From the NCBI RefSeq assembly GCF_900143685.1, contig NZ_LT671675.1, forward strand, positions 1,357,985-1,421,984: a stretch of DNA of 64,000 nt, in the 5' to 3' direction. The position numbers and the translations under genes are program-made. Position 1 is the stretch's first letter; the number at the start of each line of letters is the position of its first letter. The notes under the pieces were generated by a model. It made no database searches and was not told the origin of the DNA. It saw only the letters and a program-made list of their open reading frames with translations. This document shows, in pieces, positions 15,983 to 59,625 of the stretch. The stretch comes from Parolsenella massiliensis (GTDB lineage Bacteria; Actinomycetota; Coriobacteriia; Coriobacteriales; Atopobiaceae).

Positions 15983-16134
15983 GCCTGCCATTGGGGACGG
16001 GTTCGTTTGGCAGGGGCCTGCCATGCGCCCAGAGCGCTCGGCTCGTTCATCCAGTCTTGCCTGCCATTGGGGACGGGTTCGTTTGGCAGGGGCCTGCCAT
16101 GCGCCCAGAGCGCTCGGCTCGTTCATCCAGTCTC
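15983..16134. repeat. 76-bp tandem duplication carrying two REP-like palindromes
   Basis: Unit 15983-16058 is repeated at 16059-16134. Each unit holds one 27-base palindrome (15986-16012 and 16062-16088) of the type TGCCA...GGGGACGGGTTC...TGGCA, plus a spacer reaching the last codons of the RAYT gene. The right unit overlaps the end of that gene (stop at 16123). Confidence 0.8.
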
Positions 16135-16893
16135 GACGAGGCGGTGGGCGTTCGCGATTCTCGAAATCGTGTATCTGCCCACGCCAGTCAGACGCTCGAT
16201 CTGTCGAACGGACAGGCCAAGGTCATGCAGGCGTACGAGCATCTGGTTTCTCTCGATGGGATGAAGCGCCTTGATTTCACTTGGAGCCAGCCCCCGCTCC
16301 GAAAGCACGCGGCGAATCGCCCTCATGGCCTCGGTCTCGGGCAGCCTTCCAGGCTCGTAGGGGGTATAGGAATCTTCTCGACCACATGAACTGAATGAGG
16401 CAAATGAGGATTTGCCACCTATGAGCGCGAGAACAGGCTCGGTTTCAACGATTCGAGGCTCGTTAGCATACTCCCGGTAGCTGCTCCAACGGTATGCTTC
16501 ACGCGTAAAGCCCAGTTCAAGAGGGTTGTCGTGTATATAACGAACGGCCTGGAGAAGGTACTCGTCCGTATCGATGGGCTTGCTCTTGAATCGTCCCTGG
16601 AACACGGGTCCAACATGACCAGACTTCGCGTTGTAATACAGAGCATAGCGCGTTGACACTGCGTGCATGAACGAAGCGAGCTGATTCTTGGGATCGCACA
16701 CCAGTAGATGAGCGTGGTTGTCCATAAGGCACCACGCTATGAGTTCGATGCAAAAGACCGGCATGGCATCGGCCAAGTGGCCGAGAAACTCGTGCCTGTC
16801 CCTGTCCTCCTCAAACAAGATTTGCCTGCCCGCGCCACGAAGCATGACATGGTAATACCCTTGCTCCGATTGCTTCCTTGGTCCCCTTGGCAT
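16123..16893 (-). CDS. REP-associated tyrosine transposase (RAYT, TnpA_REP / Y1_Tnp)
   Basis: 256 residues. The N-terminal 140 residues are an HUH/Y1 transposase domain: histidines in DNHAHLL (His60, His62) and the catalytic-type tyrosine in VRYIHDNP (Tyr119), with the RAYT signature GPVFQGRFKSKP between them. A C-terminal helix-turn-helix (about 215-250, LSVRQIERLTGVGRYTISRI) would bind DNA. RAYTs are domesticated single-copy relatives of IS200 transposases that act on short REP palindromes. Here the gene is bracketed by such palindromes, two at its 3' end and one at 17045-17071. GGAGGGG precedes the ATG. No tnpB is present. It interrupts the gpmI-secG order. Confidence 0.9.
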   Translation of the reverse strand: MPRGPRKQSEQGYYHVMLRGAGRQILFEEDRDRHEFLGHLADAMPVFCIELIAWCLMDNHAHLLVCDPKNQLASFMHAVSTRYALYYNAKSGHVGPVFQGRFKSKPIDTDEYLLQAVRYIHDNPLELGFTREAYRWSSYREYANEPRIVETEPVLALIGGKSSFASFSSCGREDSYTPYEPGRLPETEAMRAIRRVLSERGLAPSEIKALHPIERNQMLVRLHDLGLSVRQIERLTGVGRYTISRIANAHRLVETG

Positions 16894-17044
16894 GCGCCCC
16901 TCCTCCCCTACGAACTTGTGAGTGGCGTATACCCAGCGAGGCGGGAATGCAGACCGTCATTGCGGTGAACATCCCAAACGATGGCTCAGGTGCAATAACA
17001 GCAGCTAGATTGTTAGATTTCCGTTGGATTCGCGTCAGGTTTCA

Positions 17045-17071
17045 TGCCAAAGGAACCCGTCCCCAATGGCA
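17045..17071. repeat. REP-like palindrome on the 5' side of the RAYT gene
   Basis: A 27-base copy, opening TGCCAAAGGAACCC and closing CCAATGGCA, in inverse orientation relative to the 3' copies. It is followed by a partial repeat (GGTTCGTCCCCAAG). Confidence 0.8.
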
Positions 17072-21796: not shown

Positions 21797-22155
21797 GCTT
21801 TCTCCTTTCGAAGGCCCTTCGGGCGCCCCTTGCGCCGAGCGGACCTAAGTTGGAAACACCATCGGGTATCGTACCGCTTTTCGCGGTCGGATATACGTAC
21901 GAGCGCGCATTGGTTTTGGGAAAAGCGCCATCTACCTGCTAGTTGCCCACTGAACCATGGTCAGGTTCGGCATGTGTGGAAGCGCACGGCCACACCGTTC
22001 GCTGCTCAGACGCCTGTGTCGGGGCGACGCGTAATGTGTGGAGGCTGTGTGCGCGGTCCACGGCCCAAAGGGGACGTAGCCCTTTGGGACGGCATGGAGC
22101 GGACGCGGCCCAAAGGGACACGTCCCTCTTGGGACACGTCCCTCTTGCGGCGGCG
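21797..22155. other. Intergenic region whiA-gap with CCCAAAGGG palindromes
   Basis: No gene was found. Near whiA are two to three copies of a palindrome built on CCCAAAGGGGACG...CCCTTTGGG (22064-22088, 22109-22133, and a fragment to 22146). The gap-proximal part should hold the gap promoter, but no unambiguous -35/-10 pair was identified. Confidence 0.5.
22064..22146. repeat. Palindromic repeats, CCCAAAGGG family
   Basis: 22064-22088 is a 25-base palindrome CCCAAAGG...CCTTTGGG. 22109-22133 is a variant, and 22134-22146 a third partial unit. They share the GGGACG core with the RAYT-linked palindromes but have different arms. They lie just after the whiA stop and may act as its 3' end. Confidence 0.65.
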
Positions 22156-24109: not shown

Positions 24110-25438
24110 GTGTGCGCTCCCCCTCCGCCGTGGCTTTCTGCATTCGAGTATACAGGGGTCAGGCGAGCCAAAGGGAACGGGTTCCTCTGGCAACGCGGGA
24201 CGGGCATGCCAGAGGAACCCGTCCCCTTTGGCATGTTGCCGTTGGCGACGTAGGTCACGATGTACTTGGTGCGCTCGACGGGCAGGACCTCGCCGTCGGC
24301 ACCGTTCTCCTTGGCGAAGTTCTCGGCAGCCTCGACGGAGTCGAAGTAGACCTTCTTGCCATTGACCTCGACGGCGGCCACGGAGCCATCCACGACGCCA
24401 TCAGCAGAGCCAACGACGAACATGTCCAGAGAGCTGGTGGTGGCGGAGTCGGCGTCGACGTACTTGGTGACGTTGACGTCGGTGTAGGCGCCGCCGGAGA
24501 CGGAGACGTCGATGCCATTGGTCTCAATGCCATCGAGCTTGCCCTGGAACGTACCGCCAGAAATCGTGACGGTGCCACCAGTGACGCTGCCCTTGCCCGA
24601 GGTGAAAAGGTCACCGGCGCCATCGTTCGCAGCGATGAAGTTGCCGTCGTTGATGACGAGCTCGCCCTTGTCCATCGTGTCGTCGCCGTAGCCGTTCGAG
24701 AAGATGCGGGCGCCGTCCTGGGTGATGGAGAAGGTGCCGCCGTTGACCTCGGCCACGTTCCAGTTCATCAGCGTGGAGCCGGTGTTGTTGCTGAACTCGC
24801 CGTCGTTGATGGTGAGCTCGCCCCAGTCATCGTTCTTGATGGTGTTGATGCCACCGCTGAAGCTGCCGCCATTGATGGTGAGCTTACTGGGGGCCTTGGT
24901 GGTGTTCTGGTTGCCGTTGTACCAGCCGTTCTCAACGAGGCTCGAGAAGTGGCCGTCCTGCTTCACGACCGCGCCGGAATCGATGGTCATGGTGCCCTGG
25001 TTCACAACGTTGTAGTAGCTGTTGCCGTTGGGCTCGTCGGGGGGACGTGCCGGCCTCCTTGCTGCGCGTATAGTTCGCAGCGCCGAGGGTCGCCGTAGCG
25101 CCAGCCTGGTTATAGACGGCCGCGTGGGCGTGGCTCACGTTGTCGACCGTGCCGGCACCGGTGATGGTCAGGGCACCGTTGTTGGTGATGGTGTGCTGGC
25201 CATCAACGTTGGTCAGCGTGAAGCCGTTGAGGTCCAGCATGACCGTAACGCCCTCGGGGACGGTAACGCTCGCGGTGATGTCGTTCTCGAGAGTGGCAGT
25301 GCCACCGGCGTTGATCTCGTTCTGCAACGACGCGGCGTCCGTAGCGGCGTACGCCGAGACCGGCGCGGCGCCCAGGGCGCCGACGAGCGCGGCGGCCGCC
25401 ACGGCGGCGATGCCTGCCCAAGCCCTTCTCATCTTCAT
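24034..25438 (-). pseudogene. Broken gene for a secreted repeat-rich surface protein
   Basis: The start MKMRRAWAGIAAVAAAALVG is a signal peptide with an AYA-AT cleavage-like site. Glycine/asparagine-rich beta-helix-like repeats follow (ALTITGAGTVDN, LTINGGSFSGG, LVINDGNF, VTISGGTFQG), typical of surface adhesin or pectate-lyase-like folds. Two lesions are visible. First, the frame shifts after about residue 131 at a run of six G (25039-25044); removing one base joins the two halves. Second, homology stops near 24234, where a REP pair begins, and the frame then reads through the repeat into the 5' end of rapZ to a stop at 24034. No C-terminal LPXTG anchor remains. Confidence 0.75.
24166..24233. 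repeat. Inverted pair of REP-like palindromes
   Basis: Two RAYT-linked repeat units face each other: 24166-24192 and 24207-24233, near-perfect inverted copies around a 14-base spacer. They form a long hairpin between the broken surface gene and rapZ. Confidence 0.8.
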
Positions 25439-32578: not shown

Positions 32579-33487
32579 ATGCCCACCGCAATCGTCGACT
32601 GCCACACGCACACGTCGTTCTCGGACGGCACGTCAACGTTCGAGGAAAACGTGCGGGCCGCGGCCGCCGCGGGCGTGCGCGTACTCGCGTGCACGGACCA
32701 CCTCACGCTGCCGGCGAGCATCGAGGCCGAGGCGGACGCGCAGGTGCCGCATGCGCGCCTCGCCGAGCACCGCGCGGCGTATCTGCGGGCGCGCGAGCTT
32801 GCCGCCGAGGTGGCGCCGGAGCTCGAGCTTGTCTACGGCTTTGAGTGCGACTGGTACCCGGGGTGCGAGGACAACGTGCGCGCGTGGAGCGCGGGCGCGG
32901 CGTTCACGCTCGGCAGCGTCCACTGGATCGGGGATGCGGGAGACGTTGCCGCGGGTGCCACGGGACAGGCGGGGACCGAACACGTGACGAGGGCGGGCCT
33001 GCCCGGCAGCGGCGCCGGCTGGATCGACTTCTCGGACGACATGCACGTGTGGGAGGAGCTGGGCGCAGACGAGCTTTGGCGTCGCTACGTGGACGCCTGG
33101 TGCGCGGCGTGCGAGAGCCCGCTTGCCTTCTCGTCCATGGCGCACCCCGACCTGCCGGCGCGCTTCGCCAACGACGGGTGGGCGCCTGCCATCGACCTGG
33201 CACCGTTGTGGGACCGCATGGCCGAGTGCGCCCGCGAGACGGGCCGCCATGTCGAGGTGTCCACGGCGGGCCTTCGCAAGTCCACGGGCGCGTTCTATCC
33301 CAGCGCGGGACTGCTGAGGCGCTTTGCCCGGGCTGGCGTGGCAATCACCGTGGGCAGCGACGCGCATCGCGCGGCCGACGTGGCCCACGCCATCCGAGAC
33401 GCCTACCGCTACGCGGCAGCCGCCGGTTACGCGAGCGTCGACGCCCCGCGCTCCGACGGCGACTGGCAGACGCTCCCGCTCGCGTGA
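32579..33487 (+). CDS. PHP-family phosphatase, probable histidinol-phosphatase (HisK type)
   Basis: 302 residues of the polymerase/histidinol phosphatase metal-dependent family. The metal-binding motifs are visible: DCHTHTSFSDGT (about 7-18), CTDH, the FECDWYPG/GSVHWIG segments and the C-terminal GSDAHRAADV. It would remove phosphate from histidinol phosphate, the one histidine step otherwise missing from the adjacent his operon: hisB here encodes only the dehydratase. It is convergent with hisE and separated by a pair of REP palindromes that overlap its stop codon. AAGGA lies 10 bases upstream. Confidence 0.85.
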   Translation: MPTAIVDCHTHTSFSDGTSTFEENVRAAAAAGVRVLACTDHLTLPASIEAEADAQVPHARLAEHRAAYLRARELAAEVAPELELVYGFECDWYPGCEDNVRAWSAGAAFTLGSVHWIGDAGDVAAGATGQAGTEHVTRAGLPGSGAGWIDFSDDMHVWEELGADELWRRYVDAWCAACESPLAFSSMAHPDLPARFANDGWAPAIDLAPLWDRMAECARETGRHVEVSTAGLRKSTGAFYPSAGLLRRFARAGVAITVGSDAHRAADVAHAIRDAYRYAAAAGYASVDAPRSDGDWQTLPLA

Positions 33488-33540
33488 CAAAGGGGACGGG
33501 TTCCTTTGTCACGTGCCAGAGGAACCCGTCCCCAATGGCA
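33484..33540. repeat. Pair of REP-like palindromes between convergent genes
   Basis: 33484-33512 (GTGACAAAGGGGACGGG...TTGTCAC) and 33514-33540 (TGCCAGAGGAACCC...ATGGCA). They fill the 61-base gap between the PHP phosphatase stop and the hisE stop and could serve as a bidirectional 3' end. Confidence 0.8.
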
Positions 33541-55808: not shown

Positions 55809-55861
55809 TGCCAGCGGAACCCGTCCCCAATGGCATGCCAGCGGAGCCCGTCCCCAATGGC
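55809..55861. repeat. Two tandem REP-like palindromes
   Basis: 55809-55835 and 55836-55861, head-to-tail copies (TGCCAGCGGAACCC... and TGCCAGCGGAGCCC...) in the gap after the acetolactate-synthase-like gene and before uvrA. They start 5 bases before the stop codon region of 55866. Confidence 0.8.
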
Positions 55862-55865
55862 GCGG

Positions 55866-57536
55866 CTAGGCGCCGTACTCCTCGCGCAGGCGCCTCGTGA
55901 GGGCCATGTTCTCGGAGTAGTCGACGCGCACGACCACCACGCTGGGCGCGTCGTCGTGGGAGAAGGCGTCCTCGAGCGTGGGCACGAGCTCGTCGGCCGC
56001 GCTCACCTCGTAGCCGTGGCAGTGCATGGCCTCGGCATAGGCCTTGAAGTCGGGGTTGGAGAAGCTCACGCCGAACGTGTCGCCGAACTGCTCCTCCTCC
56101 TTCCAGCGGATGAGCCCGTAGTGCTCGTCCTCCCAGATGAGGACCACGATGGGCACGCCCTCGCGCACGGCCGTCTCGAGCTCCTGCGAGTTCATCATGA
56201 AGCCGCCGTCGCCCGTGACGGCCAGCACGCGGCGCTCGGGATGGACGAGCTTGGCGGCGATGGCGCCGGGCACCGAGAAGCCCATGGAGGCAAAGCCGTT
56301 CGAGATGAGGCAGGTGCGTGGCTCGTAGCAGGGGTAGTCTCGGCCGATCCAGATCTTGTGGGCGCCCACGTCGGAGACGAGGATGTCCGAGCGGCCGAGC
56401 ACCGAGCGGACGTCTGCCAGGATGCGCGCGGGCTTCATGGGGTAGGCGTCGGAGGACGAGAGCTGCTCGAAGTCCCCGCGCAGGCGTTGGCCCACGGCGA
56501 GAAGGCCGTCGGGCTCGGGCTTGTCGTCGCGGCGGGCGGTGCGAAGGATCTGGTAGATGCTGTCGGAGATATCGCCCGTGACCTCGACGTCGGGCTCGTA
56601 GAGCTGGTTGACGTCGGCCGGCAGCCCCGAGATGTTCACGATCTTCATCTTGTGGGTGTGCCACTTCTTGGGCGCGCACTCGATGAGGTCGTAGCCCACG
56701 CCGATGACGAGGTCTGCCTGGTCGAACGCGTCGATGATGTAGTCGTGCTGGGGGATGCCCACCACGCCCAGGCGCCACGGGCAGTCCCACGGCACGATGC
56801 CCTTGCCCATCATCGTCTGCACCAAGGGGATGTGGAGGCGCTCGGCCATGGAGCGCACGGCCTCGGCGGCACCCGCGCGCACGGCACCGGCGCCGGCGAG
56901 GATGAGCGGGTTTTTGGCCTGCGAGATGAGGTGGGCCGCCTCGATGACGCTCGCCGGGTCGGCGTAGAGCGCGGGCGGCTGCTGGCGGCGCAGCGGGCGG
57001 GCGGGGCTGGGCATGTGGGCCACGTTCTTGGGCAGGTCGATGTGCGTGGCGCCGGGCTTGGGCGCCTCGGCGTACTTGAAGGCCAGGCGCGTGATCTCTG
57101 CCACGGTGTCGGGGCGCATGACGACCTTGCTGCGCTTCGTGATGGGCGAGAACATCGCCGAGAGGTCAAGGTACTGGTGACTCGTGAGCTGCATGAGCTC
57201 GCTGGAGACCTGGCCGGTGATGGCCACGAGCGGAGCTCCGTCAAGGAAGGCGTCGGCCACGCCCGTGACGAGGTTCGTGGCGCCCGGGCCAAGCGTGGCC
57301 AGGCACACGCCGGCGTGGTCCGTGAGGCGGCCGTAGACGTCTGCCATGAAGGCGGCGCCCTGCTCGTGGCGCGTGGGGATGAAGCGCACGCCCGCCTTCT
57401 TGAGCGCGAACATCAGGTCGAGGTTCTCCTCGCCCGGAATGCCGAACACGATGCGCACGCCCTCGGCCTTGAGGCAGTCGACGAGCACCTCCGCCGTGGT
57501 CTTCTCGGTCGTTGCGTTCTCGGGCTTCTCGGCCAT
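55866..57536 (-). CDS. Thiamine-diphosphate enzyme, acetolactate-synthase-like
   Basis: 556 residues with the three-domain layout of ThDP enzymes: N-terminal Pyr domain (VRIVFGIPGEENLDLMFAL with the catalytic Glu in TRHEQGAAFMADVYGR), central domain (about 190-330) and C-terminal PP domain with the ThDP/Mg motif GDGGFMMNSQELETAV. It would condense two pyruvates to acetolactate. No small regulatory subunit gene follows, suggesting a catabolic (AlsS-like) rather than valine-biosynthetic role, but related carboligases remain possible. Monocistronic, with REP palindromes on both sides. Confidence 0.78.
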   Translation of the reverse strand: MAEKPENATTEKTTAEVLVDCLKAEGVRIVFGIPGEENLDLMFALKKAGVRFIPTRHEQGAAFMADVYGRLTDHAGVCLATLGPGATNLVTGVADAFLDGAPLVAITGQVSSELMQLTSHQYLDLSAMFSPITKRSKVVMRPDTVAEITRLAFKYAEAPKPGATHIDLPKNVAHMPSPARPLRRQQPPALYADPASVIEAAHLISQAKNPLILAGAGAVRAGAAEAVRSMAERLHIPLVQTMMGKGIVPWDCPWRLGVVGIPQHDYIIDAFDQADLVIGVGYDLIECAPKKWHTHKMKIVNISGLPADVNQLYEPDVEVTGDISDSIYQILRTARRDDKPEPDGLLAVGQRLRGDFEQLSSSDAYPMKPARILADVRSVLGRSDILVSDVGAHKIWIGRDYPCYEPRTCLISNGFASMGFSVPGAIAAKLVHPERRVLAVTGDGGFMMNSQELETAVREGVPIVVLIWEDEHYGLIRWKEEEQFGDTFGVSFSNPDFKAYAEAMHCHGYEVSAADELVPTLEDAFSHDDAPSVVVVRVDYSENMALTRRLREEYGA

Positions 57537-57642: not shown

Positions 57643-57739
57643 TGCCATTGGGGACGGGTTCGTTTGGCATGCCATTGGGGACGGGTTCGTTTGGCACGGC
57701 GACGCCGGGGCCTGCCATTGGGACCCGTCCCCTTTGGCA
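57643..57739. repeat. Cluster of three REP-like palindromes
   Basis: 57643-57669 and 57670-57696 are directly abutting identical copies; 57713-57739 is an altered third copy whose right half is in inverse style (GGGACCCGTCCCC). They lie between the radical SAM gene end (57745) and the acetolactate-synthase-like start. Confidence 0.8.
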
Positions 57740-59561: not shown

Positions 59562-59625
59562 GGGACGCTGGGGACGGGTCACCTTGTCCCACGCGTGGGA
59601 CAAACGAACCCGTCTCCGCTGTCCC
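59562..59625. repeat. 64-bp imperfect palindrome, REP-like variant
   Basis: Arms 59562-59593 and 59594-59625 meet at CACGCGTG and are inverted copies with about 25 of 32 bases matching. Both arms contain the GACGGGT/ACCCGTC core of the RAYT-linked repeats. It fills the gap from the radical SAM start region to the ykoC stop codon (59626). Confidence 0.7.

Follow-up and report, generated by a model that had tools for sequence, protein, structure and literature searches.

A Y1 HUH transposase and its dispersed hairpins in Parolsenella massiliensis, compared with a sister species

Among transposases of the Y1 HUH kind, those of the TIRYT/TIRtron type are flanked by terminal inverted repeats (TIRs) that are not repetitive extragenic palindromic (REP) sequences of the GTAG sort; some of these TIRs have a GGGGWSAS motif, and some form moderately abundant families with dimers or clusters (Di Nocera 2013, PMC3733652). 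A census of TnpAY1 proteins placed 20 of 26 TIRYTs in its subclass 2.1/RAYT group 1 (RAYT, REP-associated tyrosine transposase), whose proteins are long and have an extra C-terminal region likened to helix-turn-helix (HTH) domains (Bac_DnaA_C, HTH_23, HTH_28); in the parts of the census drawn on here, no REP-like sequences were recovered beside subclass 2.1 genes, either automatically or by hand (Quentin 2018, PMC6006769). In related strains, different REP classes can flank syntenic RAYT genes, a phenomenon called the REP "orthoswitch"; the sections describing it leave the mechanism open and suppose that old REPs persist and decay as new ones spread (Nunvar 2013, PMC3686654). Here we describe a Y1 transposase gene and the hairpin that accompanies it, REP1, in a stretch of 64,000 nucleotides from Parolsenella massiliensis (contig NZ_LT671675.1, positions 1,357,985 to 1,421,984), referred to as a whole as the window. 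REP1 is a 27-base palindrome with the 12-base loop GGGGACGGGTTC, and it brackets the transposase gene.

That the two form a transposase–hairpin system of the RAYT/TIRYT sort is nearly certain because of its anatomy, the copy number of the hairpin, the fixed polarity of its inverted clusters and the association of such palindromes with their own transposases across genomes. We further regard it as likely that the window holds a TIRtron-like unit, an HUH/Tyr transposase with a cognate dispersed hairpin, in which the allele of a chromosomal slot was replaced and the outermost stem bases of existing hairpins, here called the foot, were then overwritten in place. The source genome (G000) has 2,009,306 bases; within a set of 140 genomes of the family, its genus is otherwise represented by one genome alone, that of the sister species (G001).

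The transposase and its hairpins in the source genome

The 256-aa transposase matches the Pfam family Y1_Tnp (40.7 bits, cut-off 23, E 3e-10), and H60, H62 and Y119 are unchanged in all rows of a 36-row alignment of its relatives. This upholds an earlier, sequence-only reading of the window, which had recognized a single HUH/Tyr transposase gene with an HxH motif and Tyr119. The same reading had seen no tnpB, and inspection of the flanking genes agrees, the neighbors being gpmI and secG. An AlphaFold2 model of the protein (mean predicted local distance difference test score 89.1, predicted template modeling score 0.71) has as its top solved structure 4er8, the E. coli RAYT with a REP hairpin (E 4.6e-7, TM score 0.72 by target), followed by the ISDra2 and IS608 transposases; a sequence search of the PDB with the transposase gave no match. 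The C-terminal HTH of the sequence-only reading is likely, rather than proven, because five helices are predicted outside the transposase core (residues 186-255), and no HTH profile reaches its cut-off in that region, where the matches are weak (best MarR_2, E 0.012; HTH_7, 0.016; HTH_23, 0.077). In PHROGs, a single weak match links the C-terminal part to a DNA-binding family.

The gene and the palindromes of the window are as follows (window coordinates, strand).

16123..16893, minus: HUH/Tyr (Y1) transposase gene, TIRYT/RAYT type, 256 aa, with H60/H62, Tyr119 and a predicted C-terminal helical (HTH-like) bundle
15986..16012, plus: REP1/TIR unit TGCCATTGGGGACGGGTTCGTTTGGCA, on the 3' side of the transposase gene
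16062..16088, plus: second REP1/TIR unit, within a 76-bp tandem duplication
17045..17071, minus: REP1/TIR unit on the 5' side of the transposase gene, in the orientation opposite to that of the 3' copies
24166..24192, plus: REP1 unit with the loop variant GGGAACGGGTTC
24207..24233, minus: REP1 unit, inverted partner of the 24166 unit; orthologous REP1 in G001
33485..33511, plus: REP1 unit with TGACA/TGTCA arms
33514..33540, minus: REP1 unit, inverted partner of the 33485 unit
55809..55835, minus: REP1 unit
55836..55862, minus: REP1 unit with one loop change
57643..57669, plus: REP1 unit
57670..57696, plus: REP1 unit, in tandem with the 57643 unit
57713..57739, minus: REP1 unit, inverted, with the loop GGGGACGGGTCC
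59563..59589, plus: degenerate REP1 with two loop mismatches
59598..59624, minus: degenerate REP1 with one loop mismatch; a G001 REP1 at the orthologous place
22065..22087, plus: palindrome of another family, loop GGGGACGTAGCC; G001 has a REP1 pair at that place

The palindromes of about 27 bases that the sequence-only reading placed around the gene correspond to the units at 15986-16012, 16062-16088 and 17045-17071, and the repeats it listed at 24166-24233, 33484-33540, 55809-55861 and 57643-57739, with an altered one at 59562-59625, are all present. The tandem duplication that includes the second unit lies directly 3' of the transposase gene (window 15985-16136). Counted with up to two mismatches, the 12-mer is mildly enriched within the window (19 occurrences against 9.9 expected, with 2 of 100 shuffles reaching 19).

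The genome-wide search proposed at the same time, together with a count of singlets and pairs, gave a large excess: the exact loop occurs 76 times in the source genome (33 forward, 43 reverse) and its reversed control not once. All copies except one, at G000:1616841 inside an open reading frame (ORF), have a stem with TGCCA..TGGCA-like arms (75/76), and the looser pattern CCA-N2-GGGGAC-N9-TGG occurs 80 times in each of the two genomes, again with reversed controls of 0. Among the 75 units the stem covaries at pair 0 (Watson-Crick in 41 against 27.2 in shuffles, 1/2000 of which reach it) and at pair 3 (52 against 40.3, 0/2000), and pairs 2, 4 and 5 are nearly invariant. Joining units within 150 bp of each other yields 52 clusters, 30 of them single and 22 with two or more units (14 "+-", four "--", three "++" and one "+--"). 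The polarity of inverted clusters is fixed, with 14 "+-" and no "-+" in G000 and 10 and none in G001.

The placement of genes was taken from an ORF model that starts from amino-acid make-up and is a crude gene model. By this model 72 of the 76 copies are intergenic, in 26 convergent, 41 tandem and 5 divergent gaps, so that the claim that the repeats always lie between genes is close to correct, the four others including the ORF-internal copy at 1616841; two of the four occupy the terminal part of a single predicted ORF, and one lies at the edge of another. Because the 3' end of a gene faces the 5' side of 50 of the 72 hairpins, near the roughly 46.5 expected from the make-up of the gaps, there is no clear preference in hairpin orientation relative to genes. 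A role of the hairpins as terminators was considered and rejected, a T-run standing beside only 2 of 76. Also rejected was a GTAG foot, suggested by an excess of TAGC, CTAG and GTAG upstream of hairpins, as the distances are scattered and the motifs are largely stop codons; TAG makes up 15 of the 23 stops within 10 nt of a hairpin. As an observation in its own right, TAG is the commonest stop in the window (30/48) and in all G000 stretches analyzed (116/165; same crude gene model), which is unusual in DNA of 66.7% G+C, the value found here.

Other palindromes accompany REP1 in this genome. A second Y1 gene, the only further one, lies at 37.3 kb in G000; its product is 49% identical to the window transposase and has no HTH match in the same profile search. 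Both of its sides carry a different palindrome, TGACAAAGGGACNGTCCCTTTGTCA, which has eight sites in G000 at up to three mismatches, and the stop codon of the gene comes from the downstream copy. A third family, with the loop GGGGACGTAGCC, has at least 13 copies, some as inverted pairs (for example at 475862, 1082180 and 1172619/1172664); in the sequence read around both Y1 genes of G000, it adjoins neither. From 775282 to 1152883 on contig C1 of G000, 377 kb are devoid of the exact REP1 loop, and other palindrome families occur there. In the window, a gene for a thiamine-pyrophosphate enzyme beside uvrA (55866-57536) is set between the REP1 clusters at 55809-55862 and 57643-57739. It has no match in the syntenic stretch of G001, where a single REP1 (443403) occupies the place, and this gene between hairpins has apparently been gained or lost between the species.

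Cognate palindromes and chromosomal slots across the family

Matches to the transposase (E at most 0.001) are found in 83 of the 140 family genomes and 19 of 35 genera, including records titled Collinsella, Olsenella, Gordonibacter, Paraeggerthella and Enorma; the host bacterium belongs to a mostly gut-dwelling group. A GTDB-based collection gave 216 candidate stretches, 207 of which encode a relative, and the 80 stretches kept have titles nearly all from Coriobacteriia or actinobacteria, with one titled Clostridiales. From 171 loci, 133 were retained after removal of 21 duplicates, 10 with stops and seven at contig edges. An exact flanking inverted repeat of at least 14 bases is present at 106 of these 133 loci, compared with 71 of 2640 comparisons between mismatched loci; 86 of the 106 repeats contain GGGAC or GTCCC, and 53 contain GGGGAC or GTCCCC. 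The similarity of the TIRs tracks transposase identity (Mantel r 0.49, 0/2000 permutations, in 104 of the 106 loci), also among transposase pairs below 60% identity (r 0.27, 0/1000 permutations).

For three palindromes, exact counts in the 140 genomes were compared with the occurrence of a fetched transposase that has the palindrome within 300 bp; not every transposase was fetched, so genomes counted as "without" may have one. The REP1 loop occurs 76 and 67 times in the two genomes with a transposase flanked by it and at most 24 times (median 0) in the 138 without. The AAAAGGGGTCTGTCCCC palindrome occurs 66, 63, 54, 37, 13 and 3 times in genomes with a flanked transposase and at most 18 times in 134 without, and the GACAAAGGGACTGTCCC palindrome 96, 65, 60, 59, 49, 43, 41, 24 and 4 times with and at most 39 times in 131 without (Mann-Whitney P 0.004, 1e-9 and 7e-12 for REP1, AAAAGGGGTCTGTCCCC and GACAAAGGGACTGTCCC, relatedness ignored). 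All three palindromes thus reach their highest counts in genomes with a transposase that they flank, with exceptions taken up below. In the 57 genomes that lack any match to the transposase, copies of the three palindromes turn up in 17, 1 and 4, with maxima of 4, 1 and 10. The suggestion of a novel host in the sequence-only reading stands insofar as a coriobacterium has a transposase with its own dispersed palindromes, and falls insofar as the host is not a lone case, given the matches in 83 genomes. Different transposase–palindrome pairs in comparable genomes across the class offer a natural specificity series of loop, foot and protein.

Many of the transposase genes occupy recurrent chromosomal positions. 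Both flanks are common to 400 pairs among the 133 loci, which define 12 slots with 81 loci and leave 52 loci alone. The gpmI-secG slot of the window is occupied in five more loci (L145, L147, L149, L151 and L157), titled Collinsella, Enorma or uncultured Coriobacteriaceae. On a transposase tree of 130 tips, 79 of them slotted, the slot label requires 12 changes, with a minimum of 11, and at least 46 in each of 1000 shuffles; five of the eight slots represented by more than two tips are unmixed with other slots. Within slots, transposases of at most 60% aa identity occur in 38 of the 92 pairs whose flanks are both at least 88% identical. In L067/L084 the flanks are 98.3% and 94.7% identical in nucleotides and the transposases 48% in amino acids, and in L167/L172 the corresponding values are 97.8%, 98.0% and 57%. 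Junctions could be drawn in 15 of the 38 slot pairs, giving 30, of which 22 had a GGGGAC/GTCCCC core to measure from; 15 of these 22 lie within 10 bp of the core, where 3.2 are expected (0/5000 simulations).

Changed feet in the sister species, and how they may have arisen

In G001 the transposase sits in the same slot, between gpmI (97% aa identity) and secG (96-97%), and is itself 66% identical to that of the window. Its synonymous divergence (dS) from the window gene is 1.54, near saturation, whereas 33 syntenic genes range from 0.09 to 0.48 with a median of 0.24 (33 of 49 predicted genes, 11 having no match and five failing the identity/coverage filter); the ratio of nonsynonymous to synonymous divergence (dN/dS) of the transposase is 0.18. 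Third-position G+C is 0.63 in the transposase and 0.83-0.97 in the genes compared. As a separate observation, G001 also has two IS200-like tnpA genes (C1:123848-124204 and 1230614-1230970) of equal score, 136.6 bits, a match of a kind not present in G000.

The G001 genome holds 67 copies of the REP1 loop, 66 without an ORF-internal one. Its commonest hairpin, in 17 copies, is GGACCAAA-loop-GTTTGGTCC, and the copies adjoining its transposase are near this type; the 5' arm is GACCA in 34 of the 67 and the 3' arm TGGTC in 48. When the 103 loop sites of G000 (at most one mismatch) are projected onto G001, 50 have a same-strand copy near the projected place, 12 face a homologous stretch without a copy and 41 have no homologous counterpart among the G001 stretches analyzed. 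Among 38 strict one-to-one orthologous hairpin pairs, the 3' foot is CA in G000 and TC in G001 in 27, and the 5' foot is TG in 27 units of G000; in G001 it is TG in two, GA in 16 and mixed in the rest. Most shared hairpins of the two species thus differ in the foot at unchanged places. Neighboring pairs at G001:303553/303580 and G000:1611814/1611841 are unswitched, being of the TGCCATT type in both species, and when these two are left out the feet have no orthologue-specific likeness (24 versus 23.5). In a syntenic part of 72 kb, chosen independently of the hairpins, all seven window loci fall on six of nine G001 loci, including the two loci beside the transposase; tested as six shared of seven and nine in 31 gaps, the overlap has a P of 7e-4. 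Where G001 has one hairpin immediately behind a stop codon, the corresponding place in the window, at about 62.57 kb, appears to be empty, and one G001 REP1 pair corresponds to the different palindrome family at window 22065.

These patterns can be joined in a mechanism, in which hairpin binding, cleavage, overwriting and allele exchange are all inferred from sequence. Recognition of the folded hairpin by the HUH core would be of one strand and would depend on two determinants, the constant 12-base loop and the foot; the C-terminal helices might add a further DNA contact. We infer this division because the loop is constant and the foot differs together with the transposase, and by analogy to tested TnpAREP proteins, in which the tetranucleotide, the stem and the loop or bulge contribute unequally (PMC8266576). 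The transposase would cut at the foot, and the hairpin would be moved or exchanged on single-stranded DNA, for example behind a replication fork. Over the long term the transposase would stay in fixed chromosomal slots, where one allele, comprising the transposase and its TIRs, could give way to another of the same slot that is deeply diverged from it; existing hairpins would afterward be largely overwritten in place with the foot of the new transposase. Near-identical flanks beside half-identical transposases are hard to reach by point mutation, and the tree, being largely faithful to the slots, is evidence against free transposition; both observations fit an exchange of slot alleles, and the comparison suggests such exchange followed by overwriting of the repeats. 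The change of foot may come about by strand exchange at the foot or by selection on each site, and the differences between the sister species lend no more than indirect support to the possible activity named in the sequence-only reading. Swapping of transposases between slots was also considered; the tree is against it (12 changes, minimum 11), though three slots are not single clades.

Several observations weigh against this account. Both foot pairs are Watson-Crick in 28 of the 38 G000 units and in only 15 of the 38 G001 units, so that in G001 the foot has changed uniformly on the 3' side of the hairpin and its 5' counterpart matches it only in part. The inner hairpin positions are modestly orthologue-like (87 versus 73.6, 19/5000; without the two unswitched pairs 77 versus 68.6, 177/5000), and from this residual likeness the units would not have been wholly overwritten. 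The G001 stretches outside the syntenic 72 kb were selected for holding REP1, which inflates the shared fraction. As to the hairpin itself, stem pairs 6 and 7 of G000 are mostly unpaired (Watson-Crick in 19/75 and 18/75), no stem pair of G001 is clearly above its shuffles, and the TGCCATT form, which is the form found beside the gene, is a weak folder as single-stranded DNA (-4.7 kcal/mol, z -2.3, 7/200 shuffles equal), the TGCCAAA form folding better (-8.6 kcal/mol, z -4.3, 0/200). The cognate association has its exceptions: G111 has a transposase with the AAAAGGGGTCTGTCCCC palindrome yet three copies, G105 and G097 have 24 and 17 REP1 loops and no fetched transposase flanked by REP1, G116 and G119 have 39 and 23 copies of GACAAAGGGACTGTCCC and no fetched transposase flanked by it, G120 has 10 copies of GACAAAGGGACTGTCCC and no transposase match, and the transposase of G058 has GACAAAGGGACTGTCCC on one side only. 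In the tree as drawn, three of the eight slots that have more than two tips, the window's own among them, do not form single clades. Finally, no junction could be drawn in 23 of the 38 slot pairs, eight junctions lacked a core, and the pairs share loci, so that the junction counts are not independent.

Much of this could be accommodated by vertical inheritance of a domesticated pair, in which the transposase evolves very fast and the hairpins follow by mutation under selection, with neither exchange nor overwriting. The close agreement of slots and transposase tree (12 changes, minimum 11), the dN/dS of 0.18, the fact that the transposases of G000 and G001 have each other as nearest relative and the orthologue-specific likeness retained at inner hairpin positions would all be expected; flanks of about 95-98% identity beside transposases of 48% (L067/L084) and 57% (L167/L172) are, however, hard to explain by point mutation, as is a transposase dS of 1.54 amid values of at most 0.48, and parallel 3' foot changes would be needed at 27 of 38 sites, which makes this explanation unlikely to our minds. 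The shared sites could alternatively be independent insertions into the same hot spots, their feet then being uninformative on overwriting. Although hairpins do cluster at gene ends and another palindrome family is present at window 22065 where G001 has a REP1 pair, the strand is identical at the 38 one-to-one sites, the seven window loci coincide with six of nine G001 loci in the part chosen independently of hairpins (P 7e-4) and orthologous copies keep a residual inner likeness, and we consider hot spots a distinctly improbable source of the pattern.

The hairpins might also be host elements, such as terminators, mRNA stabilizers or nucleoid-protein sites, that the transposase merely adjoins in some instances, and their position mostly at gene ends (26 convergent, 41 tandem and 5 divergent gaps) would suit such roles. 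We find this very hard to reconcile with a T-run at only 2 of 76 copies, with three different palindromes that follow the transposases flanked by them across 140 genomes, with inverted repeats of their own at 106 of 133 transposases and with at most 4, 1 and 10 copies in the 57 genomes without a match. An ordinary insertion sequence of the IS200/IS605 type with remnants like miniature inverted-repeat transposable elements would have the Y1 HUH core in common with the window gene, but G000 has two diverged single Y1 genes (49% identical), gpmI and secG rather than tnpB are the neighbors, the slots are shared among genomes and the Y1_Tnp score is 42.8 bits, compared with 136.6 for the two IS200-like genes of G001; to this explanation we give next to no credence.

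Replacement of slot alleles with subsequent overwriting of hairpin feet could be carried further. Each slot may be a hypervariable locus whose diverged alleles are exchanged across strains and species at the TIR cores, each incoming allele rewriting the feet of the old hairpins, although we offer this extension tentatively and think it rather less probable than its negation. If true, it would supply the missing mechanism of the REP orthoswitch and would be a form of sequence conversion in place throughout the genome, with a single-strand transposase as its driver.

Place among described systems

An open-access literature search found no paper on such systems in Coriobacteria; not found there either were a Coriobacteriia-wide occurrence, cognate populations of a subclass-2.1-like protein in that class, an in-place change of foot, or slot alleles as a candidate orthoswitch mechanism. 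The main text of PMC3733652 does not mention actinobacteria, Eggerthella, Olsenella or Slackia, and the accessible part of the RepRanger paper (PMC12306157) does not mention RAYT. The system is of a known kind, that of the TIRYT/TIRtron (PMC3733652) and the RAYT/REP family.

With gammaproteobacterial RAYT/REP pairs and REPINs, as portrayed in the sections consulted (Nunvar 2010, PMC2817692; Corneloup 2021, PMC8266576), it shares cognate hairpins on either side of a Y1 gene and scattered through intergenic gaps, many of them in inverted pairs; the RAYT fold of 4er8 is the best structural match, and the REP1 pairs, of one polarity ("+-" only) and repeated in the genome, are REPIN-like. The RAYT/REP pair of the sequence-only reading survives as a transposase with its own palindromes and not as the proteobacterial type: there is no GTAG-type foot, and the NCBIfam model REP_Tyr_transpos is matched at 58.2 bits, below its cut-off of 80. 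Classical RAYT/REP systems (subclasses 2.2, 2.4, 2.5, 2.7 and 2.8) have a 5' GT[AG]G foot, which REP1 lacks, and the window system further differs in its extra C-terminal helices and in having the loop as the constant part. From IS200/IS605 elements it is set apart by the lack of near-identical full-length copies, the two Y1 genes of G000 being 49% identical, and of an adjoining tnpB.

The orthoswitch account (PMC3686654), in the sections cited, differs in that here old positions carry the new foot, and the near-identical flanks of slot alleles suggest that the transposase–TIR unit itself was replaced. The differences in foot and transposase between G000 and G001 thereby offer a testable route for specificity change in gene-and-repeat systems. 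The transposase probably belongs to TnpAY1 subclass 2.1, to judge by its C-terminal region and TIRs: like those proteins it has an extra C-terminal region, here predicted as five helices with HTH matches all under cut-off, and unlike the census as cited (PMC6006769) it comes with a cognate population of about 75 hairpins. A subclass-2.1-fitting protein with clear cognate hairpins, where the census reported no REP-like sequences, is what gives the locus its interest.

The nearest published kind, and a better fit than a classical GTAG REP system, is the TIRYT/TIRtron. As in the description in PMC3733652, the window gene is flanked by inverted non-GTAG repeats, and REP1 is dispersed like the TIR families, with two or more units in 22 of 52 clusters; compared with the GGGGWSAS motif stated for some TIRs, the window TIR GGGGACGG is one base off, its seventh base being G and not A. 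Beyond that description, the system presented here adds a site-by-site change of foot among orthologous repeats, shared slots with diverged alleles, and junctions at the TIR cores.

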